From IMG/VR virus record IMGVR_UViG_3300040770_000293, positions 1-64,000 of that record: a stretch of DNA of 64,000 nucleotides; one strand, 5' to 3'. Numbering within the stretch: the first letter of the stretch is position 1; every line of letters starts with the position of its first letter. The stretch is from a virus. The notes below the pieces were generated by a model. The model was not told the origin of the DNA. It saw only the letters and a program-made list of their open reading frames with translations, and did no database searches. This document shows, piece by piece, positions 23,234 to 58,100 of the stretch. Made by a program: the position numbers and the translations under genes.

Positions 23234-24217
23234 ATGAGTATTTTTGACAAGAGGGTTGCAGTTAAGCCCTATGAGTATCCAGAATTACTACACTACATGA
23301 ACGCCATTCGAGGCACTATATGGTATGTAGATGAATTCAGAGAAAGATTAGATAGAGATGTAAGCGATTATCACAATGTATTAACTGATAAAGAACGAGG
23401 AGTTATAAAAAGAGCCTTATTAGCTATCTCTCAAATTGAGGTTTCTGTTAAAACTTTTTGGGGTAAAGTTGGTGATAATTTACCTAAACCAGAAGTTTAT
23501 ATGGTAGGATACACCTTTGCTATGAATGAAATTATTCACCAAGAAGCTTATAGTGAGCTACTTACGAGATTAGGTTTAGAAAATGAGTTTGCAAAAGCTT
23601 TAAAAGAACCTGTTATAGAAGGAAGGGTAGAATACCTTACAAAGTATATAAAAGGAGCTTCTGAGAACAAAAGGGAAAATTATGTATTAAATTTATTATT
23701 GTTTAGTTCTTTTATAGAGTCGTGTTCTTTATTTAGTCAGTTCTATATTGTTAAATCTTTTTGCCAAAAAAGACAGAAACTTAAAACTATCGACAATATC
23801 ATCATGGCTACAGCTAAAGAAGAAGATGTGCATTTTCAGTTTGGTGTGGCTCTTATCAACATTATTAAGAAAGAATACCCTGAATGGTTTAATGAAGATT
23901 TCTATAATAAGATTAGAAGAGCATGTAAAAAAGCTTATGATGCAGAATTAAAGATTATAGATTGGATATTTGATGGCGAAGACTTAGATTTTATATCTAA
24001 AAATGATGTAGAGTTGTTTATTCAAGACCGCTTTAATAAAGCTTTAAATGCTATAGGTATAGAAAGTATGTTTGAAATAGATGTAAATCAATTAGGTGAA
24101 TCTACAAAATGGTTTGAAGAAGAAAGAATTTTAGATGTAAGAGTAGATTTTTTTGATGTACAATCTCCAAATTATACAATAGGTCAGCAAGATATTTCGG
24201 CTGATTCGTTGTTTTAA
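23234..24217 (+). CDS. nrdB: Ribonucleotide reductase class I, small (beta) subunit
   Basis: A 327-aa protein carrying the di-iron ligands E69, E99-x2-H102 (NEIIHQEAY), E162 (FIES) and E197-x2-H200 (KEEDVHF). Tyr106 is in the radical position four residues after H102. With NrdA it reduces ribonucleotides to dNTPs for phage replication. The nrdB-nrdA order with a 15-bp gap indicates one transcript. It is preceded by a terminator and an endonuclease relic rather than a clear promoter. Confidence 0.95.
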   Translation: MSIFDKRVAVKPYEYPELLHYMNAIRGTIWYVDEFRERLDRDVSDYHNVLTDKERGVIKRALLAISQIEVSVKTFWGKVGDNLPKPEVYMVGYTFAMNEIIHQEAYSELLTRLGLENEFAKALKEPVIEGRVEYLTKYIKGASENKRENYVLNLLLFSSFIESCSLFSQFYIVKSFCQKRQKLKTIDNIIMATAKEEDVHFQFGVALINIIKKEYPEWFNEDFYNKIRRACKKAYDAELKIIDWIFDGEDLDFISKNDVELFIQDRFNKALNAIGIESMFEIDVNQLGESTKWFEEERILDVRVDFFDVQSPNYTIGQQDISADSLF

Positions 24218-24232
24218 AAATTAATAATAAAA

Positions 24233-25891
24233 ATGAAAAAAGAATTTGAAAAGTGGTATTGGTTAAATGAACAAAGTAAATTATTCTTACAAAACGGGTA
24301 CATAAAAGGAGACGAAATAGAGCACTTTAAAAAAATAGGGGATAAAGCAGAGGGTATTTTAGATAAAAAAGGTTATTCTGAAAAGTTTTTAGACTATTTA
24401 TCAAGAGGTTGGTTTTTACTTCCTACGCCAGGTATAACTAATTATTTAGATAAAAAAGAAAGTGCGATTTCCTGTTTTGGGAGCTATGCAGAGGACTCTG
24501 TAGAAGGGCTATTATTTACAGACGCTGAAGTTGGAATGCTGTCAAAAATTGGAGGAGGGACTTCAGGAGATCTTTCTGCCATTAGAAAAGAAGGTGCACC
24601 AATAACGGGCGGAGGTTTTGCTGATGGAGTTATGAGATATGTAAAAAGACTTCAAGATACGACTAGTTGGATTAGTCAAAGAAGTAGAAGAGGTAAGTTT
24701 GCAGCTTATTTAGATGTTGAACACCCAGACATTGATAAGTTTTTGACTATTAAAGATAAAACTTCTGATATACATGAAGTGCCTTTTGCAGTAAAAATAG
24801 GAGATGAATGGATAAGACAGTTAAAAGAAGGAGATATTGATAAAAGGAATATTTGGGCTAAAATAATTAAGAAGAAGTTTGAGACAGGGTTTCCTTATAT
24901 AATGTTTAAAGACAATGTTAATAACAACAGACCTGATATTTACAAAGAATTAGGTAAGTATGTAAATAACAGTAATTTATGTACTGAGATACTTTTAAAT
25001 AATGATCATAAAAACACTTTTGTCTGTTGTATTGGAGCTATGAATCTAGTACACTTTGATGAGTGGAAAGATACAGATGCTGTAGAAGTTTTACTTAATC
25101 TTTTAGATACTTTTTTATTAGATTTTATAGCTAAAAATGAAGACAATCCTTTAATGCAACGAACTGTTAGATTTGCAAAGGATCAAATGGCAGTTGGTAT
25201 TGGAGCTAGTGGATACCACTCTTACTTACAGATGAATATGATTCCTTTAGAAAGTATGGAAGCTAAGTTTAAAAATACAGAGATATTTGGTAAGCTTAGA
25301 GAGATGTCTTATAAAGCTTCTGAAAAGATGGCTTTGGAATATGGGAAAGCTCCTATGTTAAAAGATGATAAATACAAGAGAAGACATGTCACTTTAAATG
25401 CTATTGCTCCTAACACTTCAAGTAGTGAAATTGTTGGACAATGGTCTCAAAGTATAGAGCCCGTTTATAGTAACTACTTTATTAAGGCTTTAGCTAAATC
25501 AAAACACTCTCAAAAAAATGTATTCTTAGAAGAGTTATTAAAAAGTAAAGGTAAAAACACAGAACATGTTTGGGAAAGTATTAAGAACAATAATGGTTCA
25601 GTTCAACACTTAAGTTTTTTAACTGATATAGAAAGATCTGTTTTTAAAACTTTTCCTGAAGTAAGTCCTATGGAACTTTTAATACAAAATGCCACTAGAA
25701 CAAAGTTTATTGACCAAGGTATTTCATTTAATACTATGATTCCTTTTGGTACATCTGCTAAAGAAGTTAGTGATTACTACTTAAAAGCACATGAAATGGG
25801 TGTAAAAACTTTGTATTATCAATTGAATCAGAATGCGGCTCAAAACTTTACAAGAAAGTCAATACTAGAATGTGACAGTTGTGCTGGATAA
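24233..25891 (+). CDS. nrdA: Ribonucleotide reductase class I, large (alpha) subunit
   Basis: A 552-aa protein with GGGTSGDLSAIR, the active-site Cys in NSNLCTEILL, and a C-terminal CDSC pair for thioredoxin/glutaredoxin reduction. SCFGSYAEDS holds the other redox Cys. It is shorter than cellular NrdA because the N-terminal ATP cone is absent, as in many phage enzymes, so dATP feedback control is probably lost. It ends at a terminator. Confidence 0.95.
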   Translation: MKKEFEKWYWLNEQSKLFLQNGYIKGDEIEHFKKIGDKAEGILDKKGYSEKFLDYLSRGWFLLPTPGITNYLDKKESAISCFGSYAEDSVEGLLFTDAEVGMLSKIGGGTSGDLSAIRKEGAPITGGGFADGVMRYVKRLQDTTSWISQRSRRGKFAAYLDVEHPDIDKFLTIKDKTSDIHEVPFAVKIGDEWIRQLKEGDIDKRNIWAKIIKKKFETGFPYIMFKDNVNNNRPDIYKELGKYVNNSNLCTEILLNNDHKNTFVCCIGAMNLVHFDEWKDTDAVEVLLNLLDTFLLDFIAKNEDNPLMQRTVRFAKDQMAVGIGASGYHSYLQMNMIPLESMEAKFKNTEIFGKLREMSYKASEKMALEYGKAPMLKDDKYKRRHVTLNAIAPNTSSSEIVGQWSQSIEPVYSNYFIKALAKSKHSQKNVFLEELLKSKGKNTEHVWESIKNNNGSVQHLSFLTDIERSVFKTFPEVSPMELLIQNATRTKFIDQGISFNTMIPFGTSAKEVSDYYLKAHEMGVKTLYYQLNQNAAQNFTRKSILECDSCAG

Positions 25892-25945: not shown

Positions 25946-25998
25946 TTTTTATTAAGTTTTTCTTGCGGGAATGGAAAATAATACATATATTTGTAAAA
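25946..25998 (+). promoter_or_regulatory. Repeated promoter cassette, copy A
   Basis: About 53 bp nearly identical to 35985-36038 and 40734-40787: ATTAAGTTTTTCTTGCGGGA, then an A-rich spacer, then TATATTTGTAAAA. TTG (25963-25965) and TATATTTG (25986-25993) are 20 bp apart. It drives the RNA-repair operon. Confidence 0.85.
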
Positions 25999-26019: not shown

Positions 26020-26307
26020 ATGAAGAATATATTTTTATTACCAACAGATAAACCGAGTAAGTTATTTATAGACGTAGATAACAATAAATTAACTATAACT
26101 GATAGACCTATTGGTGGTGAGCATTTTAAAAACCAAAACATTTATATTACTTCTGATGAAGAAATTAAGACAGGAGACTGGTATAAGTCTGGTAAGTATA
26201 TTTGGAAAATGAGATACTTTAAGTGGGGTAAAGACTCTTGGGATACTTACGAAGAATCTGAAATAACTTGTTTAAATAAATTAATAGAAATAGTAAAAAA
26301 TAAATGA
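26020..26307 (+). CDS. Hypothetical phage protein
   Basis: A 95-aa protein with the beta-rich pattern IYITSDEEIKTGDWYKSGKYIWKM, which I recall from uncharacterised Bacteroidota phage proteins. First gene behind promoter cassette A. It overlaps the next gene by 4 bp. Confidence 0.75.
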   Translation: MKNIFLLPTDKPSKLFIDVDNNKLTITDRPIGGEHFKNQNIYITSDEEIKTGDWYKSGKYIWKMRYFKWGKDSWDTYEESEITCLNKLIEIVKNK

Positions 26308-26501
26308 AACGGGTAGTATTTGAGATACATCCTTTGTATCGTTGTTTAGGAGATAAGTATGAGTTACCTGAGTTTTATATTGTTAAATCAGTTTATTATT
26401 TTAATTTTTTATTTCGTCGAAAAACAATAGGACAAGACTTAATTAACACACCATTCCAAGACATAGAAAGTGTTGAAGAATATTTAAAAATGATATTATG
26501 A
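26304..26501 (+). CDS. Hypothetical small protein
   Basis: A 65-aa basic/aromatic protein. The start overlaps the previous stop (ATGA). A TTTCGTCGAAAAA motif lies inside the gene near 26411. Function unknown. Confidence 0.65.
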   Translation: MKRVVFEIHPLYRCLGDKYELPEFYIVKSVYYFNFLFRRKTIGQDLINTPFQDIESVEEYLKMIL

Positions 26502-26510
26502 AGATAGCTA

Positions 26511-26684
26511 ATGGAAGATAGAAAAGAAAAAAGAGCCTTTAATTCTGAAGCGGAAGCTAGAGAGGAATTAGAGAGAATAATAAATACAAACTATAACACA
26601 TGTAAAGCTGTAAAACCATGTAGATATTATGAGGAAAATGGGTTGTGGTATTTAACAAGTAAGAAAAAAATAATTATATATTAA
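26511..26684 (+). CDS. Hypothetical small protein
   Basis: A 57-aa protein: a charged helix, then two Cys (TCKAVKPC) and a Tyr-rich end. It is 5 bp upstream of the RNA ligase gene. Alternative tiny frames exist, so it is supported mainly by spacing. Confidence 0.5.
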   Translation: MEDRKEKRAFNSEAEAREELERIINTNYNTCKAVKPCRYYEENGLWYLTSKKKIIIY

Positions 26685-26689
26685 AAACT

Positions 26690-27952
26690 ATGAAATTAGA
26701 AATTAAAGAGGGAAGTAAAAATTACGCTTGCTCAGTAGTAGAGATTAAAGATTTGTTTCCTATTGAGGGAGCAGATGCGATTGTTAGAACAGTGATAAAT
26801 GGAAATAATGTTGTCGTACCTAAAACAACACAAGTTGGGTCTAAAATGCTTTACTTTTGTAGTGGCACAAAATTATCAGCTGATTATTGTAAAATGAATA
26901 ATTTGTATGATAAAGAAGAAAACAATTTAGATACCACAAAACGTGGTTTTATAAGTTCTAAGCAGTCTAGAGTTAAAAGTATAAAATTAAGAGGTATTAT
27001 ATCAGATGGTATGTTACTTCCTTTAGATAGTCTATTTTATTTTTTAAATAATGTGAGTTGGTTAAAATTAGGAGATGAGTTTACAGATATTGATGGTATT
27101 TCTATTTGTGAGAAGTATGTTGTTGCAGTTAGGGAGTCTAGTCAAGGCGGTCAAAAAACAGTAAAGACAAATAAACTTAAAGACTTAATTTTAGAGTCAC
27201 AGTTTCGTTTTCACCATGAAACAGAGCATTTTGTAAAGCATCAAGATAAATTTACACAAGAAACTGAAGTAGTTATAACAAGAAAGTTACATGGTTCTTC
27301 TTTAATATTATCTAATGTTTTAATAAATAAACAGTTGGCTTTTAAAGAAAAAGTTTTTAAGTTTTTTGGTGCGGAAACTCCAACGTCAGAATATGGTATT
27401 ATATGGTCGAGTGGCAAACCTAGAGGAAGACTTCCTAAAGGGATTGAATCTCAAACTAACAAATGGGAAACTCCAAATCCAAGCTACTATACTTCTGATA
27501 TTTGGGCAAGAGCTTATAAAGAGATTGGACATACAGTAGAAAAAGGAGTTTCAATATATGCAGAAATAGTAGGTAAAGGTATTCAAGGAGATAAATTTAC
27601 TTACAATCAAGAGTACGGGATTCATATTTATAGAATCACTCAAACTTCAATTGATGGTAATGTTATAGAGTTTTCTTGGGAACAAGTAAAAAAATACTGT
27701 GAAAAATATGGTTTAAATCATGTTCAAGAGTATTTTATAGGTAAGATTAAAGAAATGGTTGTAGATGATAGCAGTTTATTAGGCTATTTACAACAAACTT
27801 ATCTGAACAAAAGTTACAGTGATTGTAAGATTGATGAAGGTATTTGTGTTAGAATAAGAGAAACTGATGAAATATTTAAATTGAAGTCACCAAATTTTAT
27901 TAAGATGGAAAGTGATGACCAAGAAAATGAAGTAGAAGAAAAAGAATCATAA
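26690..27952 (+). CDS. RNA ligase, Rnl5/DraRnl-like
   Basis: A 420-aa ATP-dependent RNA ligase. The nucleotidyl-acceptor motif I is RKLHGSS with Lys199. Motif IIIa-like IYAEIVGKG is near 289-297, motif IV EGICVRI near 383-389, motif V FKLKS near 396-400. The first 150 residues look like the N-terminal OB-type domain of the Deinococcus radiodurans-type ligase family. It would seal 3'-OH/5'-PO4 nicks, for example in tRNA cut by host defence nucleases. The next two genes supply the end-healing activities. Confidence 0.85.
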   Translation: MKLEIKEGSKNYACSVVEIKDLFPIEGADAIVRTVINGNNVVVPKTTQVGSKMLYFCSGTKLSADYCKMNNLYDKEENNLDTTKRGFISSKQSRVKSIKLRGIISDGMLLPLDSLFYFLNNVSWLKLGDEFTDIDGISICEKYVVAVRESSQGGQKTVKTNKLKDLILESQFRFHHETEHFVKHQDKFTQETEVVITRKLHGSSLILSNVLINKQLAFKEKVFKFFGAETPTSEYGIIWSSGKPRGRLPKGIESQTNKWETPNPSYYTSDIWARAYKEIGHTVEKGVSIYAEIVGKGIQGDKFTYNQEYGIHIYRITQTSIDGNVIEFSWEQVKKYCEKYGLNHVQEYFIGKIKEMVVDDSSLLGYLQQTYLNKSYSDCKIDEGICVRIRETDEIFKLKSPNFIKMESDDQENEVEEKES

Positions 27953-27955
27953 ATT

Positions 27956-28579
27956 ATGAAAGTTAAAATACTAACAAGTTATCCAAAACAAACTTTAGAG
28001 ATTAATAATATTTTCTTCAGTTCTGATTTACATTTAGATCATCAAGCGGTTATAGATTTTGGACGCAATTTTCAAAATTTAGAGTGGATGAATAAATACA
28101 TTACTGATGAAATTAACGCTAAAGTTGGTAAGAATGACTTGTTAGTTTTATTGGGAGATACAATGATGGCTGAAAAACAATACGCTAGATTTTTAAGTGA
28201 TATTGTTTGCGAGAATGTAATCATCTTATTTGGTAATCACTGTAACATAGGTAAATTAAAAAAGGTAGAAAAGGATTGTCAGTTTGACAAGTTATTGTAT
28301 ATTGGCTATTATTTAGAATTAAATATAGAGGGGCAAATTATATGTTGCTCTCATTACCCCATGTTTAACTGGAATTATCAAGATGATGGTTCTATTAGTT
28401 TACACGGACATCTACATGCAGATGAAAGCGACGTAGTAAAAGAAATCCATAAATATAAATCTATGGATGTTGGAATTGATTCTTACTATAATATGTTTGG
28501 AGAATACAGTATATTTTCATTTGAACAGGTAAAAGATATTTTAAAAGATAAATTAATTATTGGAAGACATGAAAACTAA
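27956..28579 (+). CDS. Calcineurin-like metallophosphoesterase
   Basis: A 207-aa two-metal phosphoesterase with all family motifs: SDLHLDH (D24, H26), GDT near 67, GNH near 96, SHYP near 137 and HGHLH near 152. It starts 3 bp after the ligase gene and overlaps the kinase gene by 20 bp. In bacterial Pnkp the 3' phosphatase domain belongs to this superfamily, so a role removing 3' phosphates or 2',3'-cyclic phosphates before ligation is likely. Confidence 0.85.
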   Translation: MKVKILTSYPKQTLEINNIFFSSDLHLDHQAVIDFGRNFQNLEWMNKYITDEINAKVGKNDLLVLLGDTMMAEKQYARFLSDIVCENVIILFGNHCNIGKLKKVEKDCQFDKLLYIGYYLELNIEGQIICCSHYPMFNWNYQDDGSISLHGHLHADESDVVKEIHKYKSMDVGIDSYYNMFGEYSIFSFEQVKDILKDKLIIGRHEN

Positions 28580-28961
28580 AGAATTATATATCCTAAGAGG
28601 CTGTCCTGGGGCTGGTAAAAGTACTCTAGCTAAATCTTTAGGTGGAAAACACGTTGAAGCAGATATGTATCACATTAATAAAGATGGAATATATAATTGG
28701 AAACCTGAAAAAGTTAAAGACGCTCATTCGTGGTGTCAAAACCAAGTAGGGGAATGGATGGTAAATAAAGAAACTAAGATTATAGTTAGTAATACTTTTA
28801 CTCAAGAATGGGAAATGCAGTGGTATTATGATTGGGCTGAAAAGTTTGATTATAAAGTTTATTCCTTAATTGTTGAAAACAGACATGGTGGAATTAATCA
28901 ACACAATGTACCTCAAGAAAGTATTGATAAAATGAAAGGTAGATTTGAAATAAAACTTTAA
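28560..28961 (+). CDS. P-loop polynucleotide-kinase-like protein
   Basis: A 133-aa P-loop protein with Walker A GCPGAGKST (14-22), an ADMYH switch and IVSNTFTQEWEM near 75-86. It resembles the N4BP2/T4-Pnk-type kinase superfamily. It would phosphorylate 5'-OH RNA ends. It is translated from within the end of the phosphoesterase gene (an in-frame ATG at 28569 is an alternative start). With the two upstream genes it completes a kinase-phosphatase-ligase set. Confidence 0.8.
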   Translation: MEDMKTKELYILRGCPGAGKSTLAKSLGGKHVEADMYHINKDGIYNWKPEKVKDAHSWCQNQVGEWMVNKETKIIVSNTFTQEWEMQWYYDWAEKFDYKVYSLIVENRHGGINQHNVPQESIDKMKGRFEIKL

Positions 28962-28967
28962 AAATAG

Positions 28968-28998
28968 TTGCACAATCAAAATAAAAGTAATACATTTG
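28968..28998 (+). promoter_or_regulatory. Bacteroidota-type promoter
   Basis: TTG (28968-28970) and TACATTTG (28991-28998), spacer 20 bp, before the ATG at 29028. Confidence 0.75.
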
Positions 28999-29372: not shown

Positions 29373-30725
29373 ATGAAAATATATTTTTATACTCCCACTT
29401 TAATATCACACATAGATTTAATGTCTATGGGAGGAAGTGAAAAAGCCTATGATGAAACTAAATTAGGCAGATATTGTTCAGGATTAAAACATGCCATAGC
29501 TTTATTTTTGCGAAATAAGGTAGACATGTCAATTAAAGTTTTAGACTCTGCTTACTCTGATAATTTTGATAGAGAAAGAAAGACTTATTATAACTTTAAT
29601 AAATATGTAGCTTGTTGCGAACAAACAGGTAAAGAGAAAGAGCTTATTCAAATTAATAAAGATGTTAATCTAGAATCTTTTTTTAGTGTTCATTGTGAAG
29701 ATTTAGGTGGAGGTGACTTAGATACTGAAATCATAGAAACAGGGTTCAGTACAGCCCTAGGTATTGACTGGGAGTTGTACATGGGACTTAGGGAAATCTA
29801 TAGTAATATGATTGATGAAGCAGGTTACTACAGCCTAGAAAAAGATTTAACTTTTAAATATGGAACTGTAGTAGAGTTAGAGTTTGAAGAAGGCTCTGAT
29901 TTTTATAATATTTGGCAAGATAGGCATCTATACATTAACGAAAAAGAGCCTCTTTTTAAAGTTTCAGATAAAGTTGAGATTTTAGAAAACCCTGAAGGTT
30001 ATTTAAGAATCTATAAACAAAACATCTTAGTTTATGAAGACAGAAAAAAAGTAAGTAGATTTGCTTTTAATGTTAAATTAGGAACTATAGATGAAAGAAG
30101 AATTTTGTCTAATGTATATGAAGTTGAAGGTAGTGTTTGTAATGCTATAATGTATTCTTCAAATGAAGAATTTTTAAGACAAATTATTACTTCTGATTTT
30201 AAAGTTTCTGAAAATGAATTTTTATCTGATAGAGGGACTTATGCTGCAGCTTCTGATTTATTACATAAGATAGCTTTTGAAGTTCAAGAAGAGTTTGGTC
30301 AAGTTAATTCTTATTCATGGTTAATGGATAAGATAAAAAGCATGAAAGGTTGTAAAATTGCTGGAAAAACTCTGTCTAATATAGGAGATCATGTATGGTC
30401 ATATTCAAGTAAAGTGACTGTTGAGTCTGTTCCTGAACCTTATGCTGAGCCTGCTATTATAGTTGAAGATGTAGAATATATATGTCCTTTTTCGGCGGAA
30501 ATAAAAAAATACTACAACTTTGATTTGGATGTAGAAGTTAAAAAAGCTAAATTATTAGGCTCAAAAGCTATAGCAGATAAATTTGATAATTGTATAATTA
30601 TAGATGAGAATTTTAATGTAAGTGAAGACTTTTATCTGTTCTTAGTACAATATCTAGATTTAACAAAGAAAGGAAATATAATTGATAATCTTAGTCACTA
30701 TATTTGTGGCTTAATAAAAAAGTAA
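29373..30725 (+). CDS. Large uncharacterised phage protein, possible GHKL-type ATPase
   Basis: A 450-aa protein that I do not recognise with certainty. GFSTALGIDWELYMGLREIYSNMIDEAG near residues 127-155 contains an ExxxNxxDE pattern like the N-box of GHKL (Hsp90/histidine kinase/MutL) ATPases, but a matching DxGxG box is not evident. The middle is strand-rich. Its TAA shares a base with the ATG of the thymidylate-synthase-like gene, so the two are coupled. Confidence 0.6.
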   Translation: MKIYFYTPTLISHIDLMSMGGSEKAYDETKLGRYCSGLKHAIALFLRNKVDMSIKVLDSAYSDNFDRERKTYYNFNKYVACCEQTGKEKELIQINKDVNLESFFSVHCEDLGGGDLDTEIIETGFSTALGIDWELYMGLREIYSNMIDEAGYYSLEKDLTFKYGTVVELEFEEGSDFYNIWQDRHLYINEKEPLFKVSDKVEILENPEGYLRIYKQNILVYEDRKKVSRFAFNVKLGTIDERRILSNVYEVEGSVCNAIMYSSNEEFLRQIITSDFKVSENEFLSDRGTYAAASDLLHKIAFEVQEEFGQVNSYSWLMDKIKSMKGCKIAGKTLSNIGDHVWSYSSKVTVESVPEPYAEPAIIVEDVEYICPFSAEIKKYYNFDLDVEVKKAKLLGSKAIADKFDNCIIIDENFNVSEDFYLFLVQYLDLTKKGNIIDNLSHYICGLIKK

Positions 30726-31630
30726 TGATAAAAGCAGATAAATACTTAAAGGAAACAATTTATGAAATTCTTGAAGAAGGGCAGTGGGACAAAAATCCTA
30801 GAACACATTGGGCTGATGGTACGCCTGCACATTCAAAGTTTGTAACTCAAAAAGTATTTCAATACGATATTAGTAAAGGAGAATTTCCTATTAACACTTT
30901 GAGAACAACTGCTTTAAAAGGGGCTTTTCACGATATTGAAGCTATTTATATTAAACAGGTTAATTATTTAGAAGCAATGCACTCAAGTATCTATAGTTGG
31001 TGGAAAGATTTTAGTTGGAGAGAAAAGTTCTGTGCTTCGGGGATAGGTAGGGAAAGTTATATAAATACTATAGGTAAAACTTACGGAGACACAGTAAAAC
31101 GTTATAAGTTAGTTGATAAGCTGTTAAACGGTTTAGAAGAAAATACGTTTGGTAGAAGACATAAAATTAGTTTGTGGCAAGAACAACAGGTTATTGATGA
31201 CCCGAAAGCTTTAGAGCCTTGTGCTGGACTTACGTTTTGGAGTGTTAGAGATTACGATAAGTTTGAGGTAAATAAAAGATACCTTGATATAACTTTAATG
31301 CAAAGGTCAATGGACTTAGCTGTCACAAGTTCTATAAATCCTGCTCAATACGTAATGTTTGCTATGATGGTCTGTAACCACTTGACATTTAAAACAGGTA
31401 TTAAACATGAAGTTGGTAAATTGTTACATGTAGTTCAAAACTGCCACATATATGATAGACATTTAGATTCGGCAAAAGAGGTATTAAAAAGAAAGCCTAC
31501 AAAGTTACAGCCTAAAATAGAGTTGATTTGTGAACCTAAAGATTTTTATTCTCATATAGTTGAAGATTTTAAATTTACTAATTTAGAAGATATTAAAGCA
31601 CTAACAAAAAAATTAGAAATTGCAATATGA
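30725..31630 (+). CDS. Thymidylate synthase-like protein
   Basis: A 301-aa divergent ThyA homologue. Visible elements are the N-terminal DKYLKETIYEIL helix, FPINTLRTT, catalytic Cys166 in EPCAGLTFW, the phosphate-binding QRSMDLA (193-199), N205 of SINPAQY and the NCHIYDRHLD end motif. The Asn (rather than Asp) favours dUMP over dCMP. The residue after Cys is Ala where ThyA has His, and the usual LWF loop is unclear, so a methylase or hydroxymethylase role cannot be separated. The ATG at 30725 is used because the upstream in-frame start lies inside the previous gene. Confidence 0.8.
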   Translation: MIKADKYLKETIYEILEEGQWDKNPRTHWADGTPAHSKFVTQKVFQYDISKGEFPINTLRTTALKGAFHDIEAIYIKQVNYLEAMHSSIYSWWKDFSWREKFCASGIGRESYINTIGKTYGDTVKRYKLVDKLLNGLEENTFGRRHKISLWQEQQVIDDPKALEPCAGLTFWSVRDYDKFEVNKRYLDITLMQRSMDLAVTSSINPAQYVMFAMMVCNHLTFKTGIKHEVGKLLHVVQNCHIYDRHLDSAKEVLKRKPTKLQPKIELICEPKDFYSHIVEDFKFTNLEDIKALTKKLEIAI

Positions 31631-35984: not shown

Positions 35985-36038
35985 TTTTTTATTAAGTTTT
36001 TCTTGCGGGAATAAAAGATAATACATATATTTGTAAAA
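35985..36038 (+). promoter_or_regulatory. Repeated promoter cassette, copy B
   Basis: Almost identical to copies A (25946) and C (40734): ATTAAGTTTTTCTTGCGGGA, spacer, TATATTTGTAAAA. It starts 2 bp after the helicase stop with no hairpin terminator between, unlike A and C. Confidence 0.85.
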
Positions 36039-43532: not shown

Positions 43533-43670
43533 ATGAAAAAAGAATTATTACAAATTAGAATTGATGAAGAATTATTAAATCAGTTAAAAGAATTAGCAGA
43601 TTCAAATGCTATTTCTATTTCAGGTCAAGTTAGAATGCTAATTAAAAAAGCTGTTAGAGATGGGAAGTAG
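43533..43670 (+). CDS. Ribbon-helix-helix regulator
   Basis: A 45-aa Arc/CopG-type protein: LLQIRIDEELLNQLKELADSNAISISGQVRMLIKKAV gives strand, helix, turn and helix. It should bind operator DNA as a dimer. It overlaps the start of the HNH gene at 43660 by 11 bp, so it may control that gene or be part of its unit. Confidence 0.8.
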   Translation: MKKELLQIRIDEELLNQLKELADSNAISISGQVRMLIKKAVRDGK

Positions 43671-44664
43671 TCGGATTATTAATACAAAGATAGCTATAGA
43701 GGAATCCAAGGCTATACACGGAAATAAATATGATTATAGCTTACTTGAATATATTAATTATACTATCCCTTTAAAAATAATCTGCAAAGAGCATGGAGTA
43801 TTTAAACAAAAATATCAAAAGCATTGTAAATTAGGAAGAGGTTGCTGGGAATGTGGAAAAAAATCTTGTATAGAGAATAGGTTAACTCTTACACAAGAGC
43901 TTTTAGTAGAAAGAGCTCATAAAATACATGATAATTTTTATAACTATGATAAAACCATATATAAAAATTACTCCGATAAAATCACAATTATATGTCCTAT
44001 ACATGGAGAATTTTTACAATTGGTTAATACACACCTACAAGGAGGTGGGTGTGTTAATTGTGGCAAAATAAAGGCAGGAAAAAGTAGAAGAGTTGGTAAA
44101 GTACATATTTTAAATCTATTTACTAAAAAACATGGGGATTTTTACACTTATGAAATAGAGGAAGACTCTAAAACAGATGATATTATTAGTATTATATGCC
44201 CAATACACGGAAAATTTAGTCAAATAGTTAATGTCCATTATTATTGTGGTTGCCCTAAATGTGGTAACGAAGTAATATCTAAAAAGTTAAGAAAAATACC
44301 AAAAGAATTAGATAATCTATGTAATAATGTTAGAAGAAGAGTTAAAGGTTTTATAAAAGCAAAGGGATATAAAAAATCGTCTAAGACTTCAGAGATTTTA
44401 GGGACATCTTGGGAAAATTTAAAATTACACTTAGAAGATAATAATTATGGATTTTTAATAAATTCTAAGGGTATAGATGTAGACCATATAATTCCCCTAT
44501 GCTCAGCAAAAACTGAAAACGATATTTATAAGTTAAATCATTATACAAATTTACAACTCCTCCCAAGTGAGTACAATCAGTTTATAAAATCAAATAATGA
44601 TTTTAATAGATTGCATTTTGAGACTTGGTTAAAAAATAACCCAATACCTATTGATAATGTATAG
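43660..44664 (+). CDS. HNH endonuclease with three zinc-finger-like repeats
   Basis: A 334-aa protein. Three repeats of about 60 aa each carry an IHGxxYxY start, C-x3-HG and C-x2-C (CWECG, CVNCG, CPKCG), as in phage DUF723-type DNA-binding repeats. The C-terminus holds the HNH core (DVDHIIPLCSA, LNHYTNLQLLP, N of the SEYN end). A homing-type nuclease. It overlaps the RHH gene upstream and the next gene downstream by a few bases, so it is well integrated. Confidence 0.85.
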   Translation: MGSSRIINTKIAIEESKAIHGNKYDYSLLEYINYTIPLKIICKEHGVFKQKYQKHCKLGRGCWECGKKSCIENRLTLTQELLVERAHKIHDNFYNYDKTIYKNYSDKITIICPIHGEFLQLVNTHLQGGGCVNCGKIKAGKSRRVGKVHILNLFTKKHGDFYTYEIEEDSKTDDIISIICPIHGKFSQIVNVHYYCGCPKCGNEVISKKLRKIPKELDNLCNNVRRRVKGFIKAKGYKKSSKTSEILGTSWENLKLHLEDNNYGFLINSKGIDVDHIIPLCSAKTENDIYKLNHYTNLQLLPSEYNQFIKSNNDFNRLHFETWLKNNPIPIDNV

Positions 44665-46318: not shown

Positions 46319-46938
46319 TGATTAAGTACAAATATTCAAAATTATATTGGTTTTTAAGATACTTTGAGTGGATGTCTGTATACTTCTCACCTTTTAGACC
46401 GCCAATTCCAATAGTGTATATTGGTAAAGTTGCCATAGGAACACCTTATTTCTTTCCTCGTGTATGGAAAAAAGCTACTCCTAAAAAAGCTATAGAAGCT
46501 ACTTTAAAAGAAATTAAAGAAGTTAGAGAGTATAATGAAAGAGAGCAAACTTATAAACGTACAATTAGGACTTTTGATGAATTGTATGAACAGAAATTAA
46601 AGGGTTCTTTTGCGCAACCTAAAAAAATAGGTTTTGACTTTGTTCAACTTGGATGGAAAACGAAATGGGAAAGAGATAACTATAGATTTGAATGGAGTCC
46701 TATGTGGAGTTTTGTTTTCTTTGGTTATCAAATTGCCATAACTTTTGTAGCTGTTGATATGTATCGCTTTTGGGAATGTTGGCTTACTTACTCTCGTGAG
46801 ACAAATAAAAAGTTAAGTGTTAGAGCCCGTTTAGATGATTGTATTAAACGTTATCCTTGTAAGTGGACATCTTACTCAGGAGATAAAAAAGAAACAGTAG
46901 ATTATTGGACTAAAATACTTAAAAACAAGTGGTTATGA
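46318..46938 (+). CDS. Hypothetical Trp-rich phage protein
   Basis: A 206-aa protein with many Trp/Tyr and a central helix. No signal peptide or clear membrane helix. It overlaps the HNH gene by 4 bp (ATGA). Family unknown. Confidence 0.7.
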   Translation: MIKYKYSKLYWFLRYFEWMSVYFSPFRPPIPIVYIGKVAIGTPYFFPRVWKKATPKKAIEATLKEIKEVREYNEREQTYKRTIRTFDELYEQKLKGSFAQPKKIGFDFVQLGWKTKWERDNYRFEWSPMWSFVFFGYQIAITFVAVDMYRFWECWLTYSRETNKKLSVRARLDDCIKRYPCKWTSYSGDKKETVDYWTKILKNKWL

Positions 46939-47687
46939 AAAATCTAGAAAGAATAGGTGAAGAATATCTAACTCTTGAAGGAGATAAAGTTAAGGTTGTA
47001 GACTATAAAGGTATTCATGGTACAGATGTAAAACTTGATAGTGGTCATATTTTTACTGTTCAATATGGTCATTTAGTAAGAGGGAAAGTTAAAAACCCTT
47101 ACCACCCCTTAATTTTTAGTGTGGGATTTATAGGTGTTGGTAAATATAAAACAAAAGACGGTGGTAAACATTTTAAATCTTATACAACTTGGAGAAATAT
47201 GTTAGAAAGAGGTTGTAGTGAAATATATAAAAAAGAATTTACCTCTTATAAGGAAGCAAGTGTTTGTGAAGAATGGTATAATTTTCAGAACTTTGCTAAA
47301 TGGTTTGAAGAAAACTACAACCCTGAAACAATGCAAGGTTGGCACCTTGATAAAGACATTCTAGTTAAAGGAAATAAAATTTACAGTCCTGAAACTTGTT
47401 GTTTTGTACCAAGAGAAGTTAATTCCTTTTTTGTAAAAGGTAAGAGCAGAAGAGGAAATTACCTAATAGGTGTATATTTACATAAGGATGGTAAATTTAT
47501 GGTAAGTTGTAATGTAAATAAAAAAATTAAAAATTTAGGCTATTTTACATTAGAATTAAAGGCTTTTCAAGTTTACAAAACTTTTAAAGAAAATTTAGCA
47601 AAAGAATTAGCTAACAAATGGAATGGGCAAATAACTGAGCAAGTTTATCAAGCATTAATAAATTACGAAGTAGAAATAACAGATTAA
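46935..47687 (+). CDS. HNH/AP2-type homing endonuclease
   Basis: A 250-aa protein with the phage HNH layout: TTWRNMLERGC, VCEEWYNFQNFAKWFEEN, then GWHLDKDILVKGNKIYSPETCCFVP with the catalytic His/Asp/Asn set, followed by an AP2-like beta domain (RGNYLIGVYLHKDGKFMVSC). The ATG at 46935 is preferred over an in-frame GTG 6 bp earlier. A relic of a close relative lies before nrdB (23116-23214). Confidence 0.85.
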   Translation: MKNLERIGEEYLTLEGDKVKVVDYKGIHGTDVKLDSGHIFTVQYGHLVRGKVKNPYHPLIFSVGFIGVGKYKTKDGGKHFKSYTTWRNMLERGCSEIYKKEFTSYKEASVCEEWYNFQNFAKWFEENYNPETMQGWHLDKDILVKGNKIYSPETCCFVPREVNSFFVKGKSRRGNYLIGVYLHKDGKFMVSCNVNKKIKNLGYFTLELKAFQVYKTFKENLAKELANKWNGQITEQVYQALINYEVEITD

Positions 47688-47690
47688 ATT

Positions 47691-49277
47691 ATGAGTAAAA
47701 AGAAATATACAGAAGAAGAGATTAATTTTGTAAAGGATTTAGTCGAAAAAGGAAGTGATGTAACCCCTGCGGCTAGGTTAATGTGTGAGTATTTTGGAAA
47801 GTTTTTCACTGATTCTATTGGGCGTAAAATGCGAGATAAGATGCAGAAAATGAAAGTAACTAATAACGTACAAGTTATTGAAGATACCGATGTATTTAAA
47901 GAAGCGCAAAATAAACAACATGATAACACAAAGAAAAGGTTTTTAGTTACTTGGGCACAATCAGATACAGCTGTTCATAAGGGATTTCTTAAAAATATAG
48001 AATCCTATGCTAAATATGTTGATGCTGATATTTTATGTATTGCTGGACGATATTCTAACCCTTCATCTCTATCTGCAAGCAGAGCTATAAAATCAAAAGA
48101 AAAAGCTATTAAAAACACTTGGGATAATTCTATTTTACCTTATCTTGATGCTAACCGTCATAACTTACATCAACATTTAGCTGTTCTTTCAGATGTTAAA
48201 ATTCAGCCTACTGCGTCTACTCCTTTATCAGGCATGAATGGTATAACAGGGGTAGAAAGTTGTATTGTGGGTCATCCTCGCGTACAACTTCAATCTTTAC
48301 CTGTTATGGAAGGTTATCCTAATAAACTGTTAGTGACAACAGGAGCATGTACTTTACCTAATTATACAGATACAAAAGTTGGTAAAAAAAGTGAGTTTCA
48401 TCATCAATTAGGTTTTGTAATTGTAGAGGTAGATGGTAAAGATTTCCATATTAGACAAATCGTTGCAGATAAAAAAGGTAATTTTTATGATTTAATTTTT
48501 TGTGCGAAAAATGGAGAAATTAGTGAATGTGGTGAAGGTGTACCTGCTTTAATATTTGGAGACTTACACTTGCACGAAGAGGATAAAAAAGCTGTAAAAA
48601 CTTCTTTTAAAATGGCAGAATTATTAAAGCCTGAAAATATATTCTTACATGATTTAGGAAATGGGCATTCAGTTTCTCACCACGAACAAAGAGATCCTTT
48701 TATATTATTGGAGAGAGAAGAAGACGGTTCCTGGAGCTTACAAAAAGAATTAGATAATATTGTAGAATGGTTGAACAGCTATCCTCAATATAATTTTGTA
48801 TCCGTGCAATCCAATCATAATGAATTTATTGATAGATGGTTACGAAGTGAAGATTGGCGTAAGACTAAAAATAAAAAATTGTATTTAGAATTTTCAAATG
48901 TAGTGGTTAAAGGATTAGCTCCAAAAGGTATATTAGCTTATTATTTAAATAATCATGTACCTCATTTGTACTCTTTAGGATTAGATGAGTCTTACAATGT
49001 TTTAGGCTTTGAACTGGGAATACACTCTCACGTTGGTGTACATGGGAGCAGGTCTTCTCCTATACAACTAAAAAACTTGCCAATGAAGAGCGTAGTTGGA
49101 CATAGTCATGTCCCTCACCGATATGATGGGTCATTGTCTGTAGGTACTTTAACTAAGTTAAGATTAAATTATAATAAGGGTTGTTCGGCTTGGTTGCACT
49201 CCAATGTTGTTATTTATCCTAATGGTAAAGCTTCTCACATACATATTACTAATGGTAAGTTTACTACCTTAGTTTAA
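47691..49277 (+). CDS. Large metallophosphoesterase with N-terminal helix-turn-helix
   Basis: A 528-aa protein. An N-terminal helical segment (about 8-48) looks like a DNA-binding helix-turn-helix. Near residues 285-290 FGDLHLH starts a calcineurin-like phosphoesterase; HDLGNGHSVSHHEQ, SNHNEF, IHSH and GHSHVPH supply the remaining ligands. It could be a DNA nuclease (SbcD/Mre11 or phage T5 A1-like), which is a guess from layout. It is the last gene before a terminator and directly follows an HNH gene. Confidence 0.75.
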   Translation: MSKKKYTEEEINFVKDLVEKGSDVTPAARLMCEYFGKFFTDSIGRKMRDKMQKMKVTNNVQVIEDTDVFKEAQNKQHDNTKKRFLVTWAQSDTAVHKGFLKNIESYAKYVDADILCIAGRYSNPSSLSASRAIKSKEKAIKNTWDNSILPYLDANRHNLHQHLAVLSDVKIQPTASTPLSGMNGITGVESCIVGHPRVQLQSLPVMEGYPNKLLVTTGACTLPNYTDTKVGKKSEFHHQLGFVIVEVDGKDFHIRQIVADKKGNFYDLIFCAKNGEISECGEGVPALIFGDLHLHEEDKKAVKTSFKMAELLKPENIFLHDLGNGHSVSHHEQRDPFILLEREEDGSWSLQKELDNIVEWLNSYPQYNFVSVQSNHNEFIDRWLRSEDWRKTKNKKLYLEFSNVVVKGLAPKGILAYYLNNHVPHLYSLGLDESYNVLGFELGIHSHVGVHGSRSSPIQLKNLPMKSVVGHSHVPHRYDGSLSVGTLTKLRLNYNKGCSAWLHSNVVIYPNGKASHIHITNGKFTTLV

Positions 49278-55160: not shown

Positions 55161-58100
55161 CTATTTCTTATCTTCCTTGTCTTCTGATAATAGGTAAGCT
55201 GGAGTGAAATACATAAATGTACCTGAATTTAAAATGTATTGATCTTTTACTCGTTGCACGTTTTTGAGGTTAAAATATTCCTTGACCAATCCCGTATTGC
55301 GTCCCCAATACCTAAGATTTTTTGTAGCTCCAGTCCATTTACCACTTGAAACTATTTCATCGCTTCCGATATCTGTTACAGCTAATACATCAGGGATAAC
55401 ATTTAAGCCAACAAAACTTGATTCCACAACTTCGTAATATGTTGCTGGTAAAGCTACACCTACAGATGCCGTTTCATTTGTTAATCTGAGCATTAGATAA
55501 TTTGCAGCCTGTATTAAAAAAACGTCTTTATTTTCTTCGTCATCAGCTAATTTAGCTAGTAAAATACTTAACCCTGCTATAAGGTTTAACATTATAAAAT
55601 CTTTACCATTACGTTGCATGTTCATTTTAGCATTAACATCATCTTGAGTAAATTCTGCCCAATAGGTTTTTATATCCTTACCTAAATTCTTTACGTCGTC
55701 CTTAGTAAACTGTTCAAAATAACCTTTAACAAATCTCCCTAAAGTTCTGTAAGAGCCTTCTTCAACTTGTCCTGACATTAAAGAAGTATGTTTATTTTTA
55801 AATCTCCTTGCTGTGGCTATCGGAATGAAGGATCTGTGAACGGTAAGTAACTGTAAAAATAGGTTACGAGCCGAAATGCTCTTCTCTTCTTCAGGCATTT
55901 GACCATCTATATTCTGAACTGCATAACTAATTCTTTGATAGATTGCTTCGTTTTTAAGCTTTAAATACTTTTCTAAGTCTTCTCCAGATCTGTTTAATAA
56001 GCCCTCCATTTTAGCTTTGTCATAATTAAACTTTCCATCATCTGTAAGCATAAAATTATACATGGTATTTTGCTCATTTGCATTCCAAGTGTTTTTAAGC
56101 TCTAGACTTGATAATGTTGGGTTAGCTTTTTTAAACTCGTTAAAGTTTTGAATACTCCCATTTACAATTCTGTAATCATACATTACGCTTAAAGCTATTC
56201 TAGGAATAACTGGAAAGTTACCCATAGAGTGTGTAGCATAAGGTAGTTTTACCATATTTCTCATAACCTTTCCAAAGGATGAGTTTTTCAATCTCTCTGC
56301 TTTATTATAAACTAAGAAATTTTCCAATAGTATATTTAACCTTGCTTTTGAATTTATTTCGCCCGTTTCTGCTATAGCTTTTCCTGCTAACTTTCTAAAC
56401 TCTTTATTAGCCATCTTAGTGGAGGTCATATCTACATGCTCTCCTACTTTATTCTCCAAATAAAACTGACTTTGAGCTGTTATCCAGGATGTTGCTGGAG
56501 AAATAACTGCAAAACCTAAGTTTCTAAATCTTACAAATGTTGAAAATATTCTTAAAAGTTTTGAAACATTTATATTGTAATTCTTAAAAAAGTTTATATT
56601 GTAATCAATATCTTCCTTAACTCCAAAATAGGCTTCATCCATGTGAGAATTAAACATCTTTAAAGTTGCTGTAGCTGCAGCTTCTTTATTTGAATAAGTA
56701 TCATTCAAAACAGAACTTTGCAACATTAAAGCTTGTCCTATATGCTCTTTCCTTGCTCTATATAACATACCTTGCTCATGCATCCAACTGTAGCTTGTTA
56801 GAAGTTCATCTGATAAGTCATCCTGATTGGCTAAATCTCTAAAGCCGTATTTAGGTATAATTTTCATATCTTGGACCTTAAACTTTTCGCTTCCCTCTAT
56901 AACTTCACCTGTTGCTATGTCTTCCTCTCTATAACCTACTGAATCTTTTATTCCCTCTCTAATTTTACCAAAAGAAGGTTGTTTTGCAAAGGCTTCCACT
57001 TTTCTAAGGCTTGACTTACTCTGTTGAGGTAGCTTAAATAAGTTGTGTTGATTTAAAGTGTCTGTTGCTTGTAAGGACTCTTTATGATAATCTAATAAGG
57101 CTTGTCTAGCTTTAAATAGTTTTTCATTTTTTGTTGCGTTTCTATTTTTATCTGGCGCAAAAAGATTTACATACTCTGAACTTTTAAAATCATTTCCCTT
57201 AAATTGATACCTTCCTCCTTCATAATTTTTAATGTATTTCTCATTTAAATCTGTTCTTTCCTCTGCTTCAAAGAAACTATAATTTGGAGTTACAGTTAAA
57301 GGAGATTCTCCATTTGAAACTTCCTGTAATAGTTGAGAAACTTTTTTAGTCCCTTCTCCTAGTTCTTGAATTAAACTGTCATAACCTACAGGTGAAAATT
57401 TAGTGTAGTAGGGTAATAATTTTGTTTGAGAATATTTTACTAAATCTTTATAAACAGCTATTTGTCTTTCCTCTAAATCTTTAGGGTAGTTAGAACTAAA
57501 ATGTTTTTCAAATTTTTTAGGTATATTCACCAATTGACCTTTAAGTAACATATTTACAAATGTTTTAGCTGAATCTATGTCTGCTTTGCCATTTGAAGTT
57601 GTATGTTCTCTAATAAAATCAAGTTCCTGTATACCTCTTATTCCTAAATCTTTTAAAGAATCTCTATAAGCTTGATTAACTGTATTCTCTGTTGTTTCTT
57701 CAACTTCTTCCTCGTTTTTTTCTTTCTTAAAAAATGTTGAGGCTTCTTGATATAGCAGTTGTAACTTCTCTGTATACTCTTTTATGTATTCTTTTTCAGA
57801 TGTTGACATTCTCTCTACGTCTGTCTCTGAAGGTTGGTTTAAAACTCTATTACCTTTAATTATATTATTTCTCTTACTTTGTAACTCTTTAATAGAAAAA
57901 ATTAATTCTTCTGCTCTTTGCTGATTATCTCCTTCAACATTTGACAGTCTGTCCATTAAGCTTTCTTTACCCCCCAAACTATCCCAAAATTCTCTATTAA
58001 ACCCTAAATAAGAGTTTAGTTTCAAGTAGTCAAAAGCTCCTTTAAAATCTCCTTGGGCTTCTAATTTTTCTATTTCTTCTATAAACTTAGTTGGAATACC

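Follow-up and report, generated by a model that had tools for sequence, protein, structure and literature searches.

Three adjacent genes of a virus record, predicted to encode an RNA ligase, a phosphoesterase and a P-loop kinase, raise the question of whether their products act together on broken RNA, and of whether the set is a bacterial Pnkp split into separate genes, as the original prediction had it. They lie in the window, the whole stretch of DNA analysed here, which covers the initial 64 kb of a virus record 98,514 bases long. On the evidence of sequence comparisons and structural models, the three genes likely form a modular operon with which a Bacteroidota phage heals and seals RNA that has 5'-OH and 2',3'-phosphate ends.

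The assignment of the host comes from a structural protein of 1848 aa (55161-60707), which is related over its full length to proteins of Cellulophaga phages phi17:2 and phi4:1 and of a crAss-like gut phage. The window phage is thus a distant relative of these phages, and its host is probably a member of the Bacteroidota. The window also encodes a 528-aa "DNA transfer protein" (47691-49277), 47% identical to gp020 of phi17:2 and bearing the calcineurin-like motifs GDLH, SNHNE and GHSH, as well as HNH-type endonucleases (43660-44664 and 46929-47687; PHROGs), possibly homing genes.

The locus and its three predicted enzymes

The three open reading frames were found where they had been predicted, all on the + strand. 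The ligase gene (26690-27952, 420 aa) is followed after a 3-bp gap by the phosphoesterase gene (27956-28579, 207 aa), which overlaps the kinase gene (28569-28961, 130 aa). This overlap had been given as 20 bp, assuming a kinase start at TTG 28560 (133 aa); it is present, but is more likely 11 bp long, since the consensus of the kinase family begins at ATG 28569, and the TTG start is disfavoured. We propose that the three genes are parts of a translationally coupled cassette.

A Bacteroidota-like promoter (TTG-N-TAnnTTTG), "cassette A" of the original prediction, was predicted by a consensus scan at 25963-25993 on the + strand (TTGCGGGAATGGAAAATAATACATATATTTG). Near-identical copies occur at 36003 and 40751, and 22 sites matching the consensus were observed on the + strand, about 8 being expected. 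Three small open reading frames on the same strand come next. One of 95 aa (26020-26307), the first gene past the promoter, showed weak PHROG matches of unknown function only; one of 65 aa (26304-26501) had no family match in Pfam or PHROGs; one of 57 aa (26511-26684) ends 5 bp upstream of the ligase gene. The next intergenic promoter-like site found by the scan (28968-28998, + strand) lies directly 3' of the kinase gene and likely marks the end of the transcription unit. With this arrangement, one transcript for the six genes is plausible, and the promoter at 25963-25993 may well drive the operon. The operon is flanked by genes for a ribonucleotide reductase small subunit with a probable large subunit adjacent, and for thymidylate synthase (23234-25891 and 30704-31630). 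A 450-aa protein encoded downstream (29373-30725) matches phrog_8203 in two stretches.

The ligase matched the Pfam families PF21189 (OB-fold, residues 15-112, 1.2e-7) and PF09414 (RNA_ligase, residues 193-399, 2.3e-9), both above cut-off, and the RNA ligase family phrog_968 (5e-63). An N-terminal OB-type module followed by a nucleotidyltransferase domain with the KxxG lysine is the architecture of Rnl5. Lys199 (in ITRK199LHG), the putative nucleophile, was invariant across 30 relatives, as were Glu292, Glu383 and Lys397, and the profile of the ligase family matched Naegleria gruberi Rnl (NgrRnl), a structurally characterised Rnl5 member, at 3.9e-47. These data bear out the prediction of an Rnl5-like ligase with Lys199. 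The match to TIGR02306 (DRB0094) was 6.8e-18 with 64.6 bits, below the equivalog cut-off of 151. By its sequence, the ligase is thus Rnl5-type in the broad sense, a relative of DRB0094 and not its equivalog. It shares its two-domain architecture with DraRnl (DRB0094) and NgrRnl, but is about 50-80 aa longer, and its operon partners are a metallophosphoesterase and a kinase; DraRnl, by contrast, lies near an HD-type phosphatase-kinase.

The second protein had no Pfam match, and a search of PDB sequences with the single protein gave none either. It matched the phosphoesterase family phrog_547 (4.5e-38), and all five metallophosphoesterase motifs (DxH, GD, GNH, H, GHxH) were found, in agreement with the fold; D24, H26, D68, N94, H95, H133, H152 and H154 were invariant among 32 relatives. 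The AlphaFold model (pLDDT 84.5) has as its nearest solved fold Aquifex 1xm7, itself uncharacterised, followed by enzymes of the LpxH type, with Mre11/SbcD and Pol D exonuclease folds as distant matches. A calcineurin-like phosphoesterase, as predicted, is therefore indicated by complete motifs, fold and family; it is a stand-alone protein, and we propose that it acts as an RNA 2',3'-cyclic phosphodiesterase and 3'-phosphatase.

The third protein matched AAA_33 in Pfam (3e-10) and, among PHROGs, the "ATPase" family phrog_2071 (4e-42) and the polynucleotide kinase family phrog_505 (6e-8). The family alignment shows that it retains the P-loop (K17), Asp32 and Arg105/Arg125. No arginine corresponds to the second Arg of the RDxxR motif of T4 Pnk (Asp35, Arg38), although Asp32 is conserved, and the substrate is thus not readable from sequence alone. 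The best PDB fold for the AlphaFold model (pLDDT 86.5) was T4 Pnk (4.5e-6), and the kinase domain of CthPnkp (Clostridium thermocellum), with a TM-score of 0.77 for the query, was also among the closest; PFKFB and PSTK (phosphoseryl-tRNA) kinases scored nearly as well. The AlphaFold check suggested at the outset thus returned a metallophosphoesterase fold and a T4 Pnk-like P-loop kinase fold, and with the family matches it upholds the call of a small P-loop kinase, the proposed RNA 5'-OH kinase. One homologue, a 283-aa open reading frame (L017:5530-6381), carries the kinase with about 150 extra N-terminal residues without Pfam match.

Conserved linkage and exchange of parts in other phages

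When viral contigs were scanned for the kinase, 80 loci were obtained, representing 48 non-redundant neighbourhoods, in which all open reading frames were clustered without prior choice. The commonest neighbours among the 48 were the phosphoesterase (36), the Rnl5-type ligase (27), cRec (PF20274; 16) and a T4 Rnl1-type ligase (PF09511; 11). Upon checking, six of the 36 phosphoesterases proved to be degenerate copies without catalytic motifs (L018:4012-4530, L021:3377-3895, L033:4014-4532, L085:4299-4817, L080:4305-4808, L076:1995-2498), with for example SNQQF for SDLHF, LGNF for LGDF and GEFD for GNHD, so that neighbours with intact motifs number nearer 30 than 36. For three of these six, the same or a related contig has an intact copy elsewhere, and the degenerate proteins are possibly pseudoenzymes that serve in structure or regulation.

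On contigs longer than 44 kb, the distance to the kinase was at most 3.5 kb for the phosphoesterase in 14 of 18 cases (1.2 expected) and for the ligase in 15 of 19 (1.5 expected), the expectations being those of uniform placement, a null that disregards the general clustering of phage metabolic genes. Around the phosphoesterase (79 viral loci), the kinase was found within 6 kb in 75 and the ligase in 45; around the ligase (76 loci), the kinase was found in 43 and the phosphoesterase in 39. Ligase, phosphatase and kinase are thus conserved neighbours, as in a phage RNA-repair module. Their order varies: the window has ligase-phosphoesterase-kinase, and other loci showed phosphoesterase-kinase-ligase, kinase-phosphoesterase-ligase and kinase-ligase-phosphoesterase.

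About 40% of the loci with phosphoesterase and kinase had no ligase within 6 kb. When nine such contigs longer than 40 kb were searched whole for PF09414, Rnl5, Rnl1 and RtcB ligases (the Rnl1 search having no positive control), the sole find was the beginning of an Rnl5-type ligase, cut off by the end of one contig; on two other contigs with the pair, a ligase lay about 7 kb away. Cellulophaga phage phi17:2 has the phosphoesterase, and neither such a kinase nor such a ligase was found in it. Of 80 genome loci with chromosomal relatives of the kinase (Vibrio and others), 77 had the kinase standing by itself. Kinase homologues in L140 and in other Vibrio, Psychromonas, Halomonas and Flammeovirga loci are about 40-50% identical and usually lack RNA-repair neighbours.

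The closest relatives of the locus are informative with respect to function. Six loci (L009, L010, L011, L013, L014, L178) have a ligase or a phosphoesterase 67-75% identical to that of the window. L009 combines an Rnl5 ligase, an RlaP-like nucleotidyltransferase, the phosphoesterase and a T4-Pnk-like kinase (PDB 1ly1, 4e-7); L178 has an Rnl1-type ligase with the RlaP-like gene, the phosphoesterase and a T4-Pnk-like kinase; L014 has an Rnl1-type ligase, the phosphoesterase and a T4-Pnk-like kinase. In L011, the Rnl5 ligase, 72% identical to that of the window, and the RlaP-like gene are followed by a 303-aa protein in which an AAA_33 kinase is joined to a HAD_PNKP phosphatase (1.8e-34), that is, by a T4-type Pnkp, and no phosphoesterase was found on this contig. 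L010 and L013 hold the ligase alone or the phosphoesterase alone. The RlaP-like gene was recognised weakly by Pfam (0.009) and more firmly as a phage nucleotidyltransferase (phrog_388, 4e-6).

A tree of the phosphoesterases nests the copy of the window in the clade whose partners are T4-Pnk-like kinases (support 99/86 with L178, 100/99 for the clade), whereas the window kinase shares 60-67% identity with kinases from the remaining, distant clades. The DNA homology of the window to L009, L013 and L178 stops no more than 3 bp from the kinase ATG; that to L009 is broken exactly at the position of the RlaP-like gene. The nesting and the end of homology at the ATG indicate that the kinase of the window took the place of a T4-Pnk-like kinase, the exchange falling at the start codon. 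As read from these loci, members of the cassette are exchanged between phages for functional equivalents. The replacement of these genes by a T4-Pnk-like kinase or a T4-type Pnkp is the strongest argument that the kinase and phosphoesterase of the window would act like T4 Pnkp. Conserved linkage and natural swaps (T4-type Pnk, T4-type Pnkp, Rnl1-type ligase) lend strong support to the original prediction that a 5'-kinase, a 3'-phosphatase and an RNA ligase act jointly on broken RNA.

Comparison with known repair systems

The bacterial Pnkp/Hen1 system (CthPnkp) has the same three activities as those proposed for the window set, and its phosphatase is likewise a metallophosphoesterase. However, bacterial Pnkp is a single chain with a ligase of another family, whereas the window has three open reading frames in the reverse order, ligase-phosphatase-kinase, with a ligase of the Rnl5 group. 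None of the three proteins matched TIGR04075 (bacterial Pnkp of NCBIfam) at E 0.1, and no match to Hen1 (TIGR04074) was found in the 98.5-kb record, which is possibly incomplete. Family searches, gene order and the failure to find Hen1 lead us to reject a Pnkp split into three genes by descent, and the original prediction finds no support on this point. Pnkp and Pnkp1 phosphatases belong to different superfamilies (PMC4411300).

T4 Pnkp/Rnl1 resembles the window set in that the phage itself makes a kinase, a 3'-phosphatase and an ATP-dependent RNA ligase, as predicted here, and T4-Pnk-like kinases and Rnl1-type ligases replace the corresponding parts in close relatives. The enzymes differ: T4 has a HAD phosphatase fused to its kinase, as has the relative L011, whereas the window has a metallophosphoesterase, a separate and different P-loop kinase of 130 aa without HAD domain, and an Rnl5-type ligase. 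The same families as in the window occur in Pakpunavirus and Vequintavirinae (PAK_P1, Amme-3, KB57), where about 3 kb hold a phrog_547 phosphoesterase, an RNA ligase and a phrog_2071 "ATPase". In these clusters small genes intervene, the PAK_P1 ligase is of the T4 Rnl1 type (PF09511), unlike that of the window, and the records do not call them a repair system. A Pakpunavirus genome additionally lists a separate T4-type 3'-phosphatase/5'-kinase (PMC10511388); having both, these phages suggest that the phosphoesterase-kinase pair may not simply substitute for the T4-type enzyme.

RNA repair modules of jumbo phages (Iyer et al. 2021; PMC7824862) associate a ligase with kinases and phosphoesterases and have cRec and RlaP as operon partners. 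There cRec is predicted to open cyclic phosphates, and calcineurin-like phosphatases are noted in few phages; in the passages covered, neither the specific pair of phosphoesterase and small AAA_33 kinase nor any swapping of it is mentioned.

Proposed function and significance

In the proposed mechanism, a metal-independent RNase of the host or of a rival would cut a tRNA or another RNA into ends bearing a 2',3'-cyclic phosphate and a 5'-OH. By opening and removing the cyclic phosphate, the metallophosphoesterase would produce 2'-OH and 3'-OH, the small P-loop kinase would phosphorylate the 5'-OH with an NTP, and the Rnl5-type ligase, after self-adenylylation at Lys199, would activate the 5'-phosphate and seal the ends. 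In bacterial Pnkp, the phosphatase performs both 3' steps itself. The phosphoesterase here would do the same, since no cRec was detected in the 98.5-kb record, though it is a frequent partner in relatives; a search of the record without positive control detected no RlaP-like gene either. The operon probably serves tRNA repair, and the likely target would be host tRNA cleaved by defence nucleases, among them perhaps the anticodon nucleases of the original prediction.

The phosphoesterase-kinase pair could have a separate role, as the ligase-less loci, phi17:2, the stand-alone chromosomal kinases and the second enzyme of Pakpunavirus allow. Its substrates might be signalling molecules or small nucleotides, such as cyclic or oligo nucleotides that host defence makes and that the pair would clear, the ligase being a mere neighbour. 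The tighter linkage of the phosphoesterase to the kinase (75/79) than to the ligase (45/79) and the pair-bearing contigs without detected ligase would agree with this, as would the folds, given the uncharacterised structure and LpxH-type enzymes near the phosphoesterase and PFKFB and PSTK near the kinase. However, many contigs are fragments, and the other recurrent neighbours are cRec, RlaP-like genes and two unrelated kinds of ligase. Moreover, the nearest relatives fill the kinase slot with T4-Pnk-like kinases, and a T4-type Pnkp replaces the pair beside the 72% identical ligase. We regard such a separate function as unlikely.

Maturation or splicing of the phage's own RNA (a tRNA after ribozyme cleavage, an intron, an mRNA), instead of repair of defence damage, is suggested by the enrichment of DRB0094-family ligases in gut phages that have theta ribozymes linked to tRNAs (PMC10879173), the ligase of the window being a distant DRB0094 relative. 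The record speaks against it, as no tRNA, tmRNA or Rfam match was found in its 98.5 kb, although the record is possibly incomplete and the ribozyme possibly missing from Rfam; we hold such a role to be quite improbable. A phage record without tRNA gene fits the repair of host tRNA, but proves nothing. Polynucleotide kinases and phosphoesterases can act on DNA too, and Mre11/SbcD and Pol D exonuclease folds are among the distant matches of the phosphoesterase, so that nicked DNA could be considered as substrate. Yet the ligase groups with RNA ligases, the partners in relatives belong to RNA-repair families (Rnl1-type ligase, cRec, RlaP-like), and PAK_P1 and KB57 separately encode an ATP-dependent DNA ligase close to the module, which leaves very little room for DNA repair. 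RNA healing and sealing is thus the reading that we retain.

Beyond the window, we lean towards the view that the phrog_547-type phosphoesterase and the phrog_2071-type kinase work as an RNA end-healing pair widespread among phages, with interchangeable Rnl5 and Rnl1 ligases and optional cRec or RlaP-like helpers, which undoes RNase-based defence of the host. In an annotated phage collection, 610 records have the kinase and 1284 the phosphoesterase; the two families are currently filed as "ATPase" and "phosphoesterase" without stated role. The recurrence and gene-for-gene swapping of the parts across many phages point to a common, largely unannotated counter to RNA-cutting defences. In the literature covered, which is incomplete, no earlier account was found that treats the phosphoesterase and the small kinase as a recurring pair, so that an earlier mention is possible. 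If this view is correct, hundreds of phage records hold RNA-healing genes annotated as miscellaneous, and two common PHROG families would gain a function. Phage RNA repair would then be built from exchangeable parts, and would offer a counter-defence, open to experimental test, against immunity that cuts RNA, anticodon nucleases included, in phages of Bacteroidota, Pseudomonas, Klebsiella and Vibrio.
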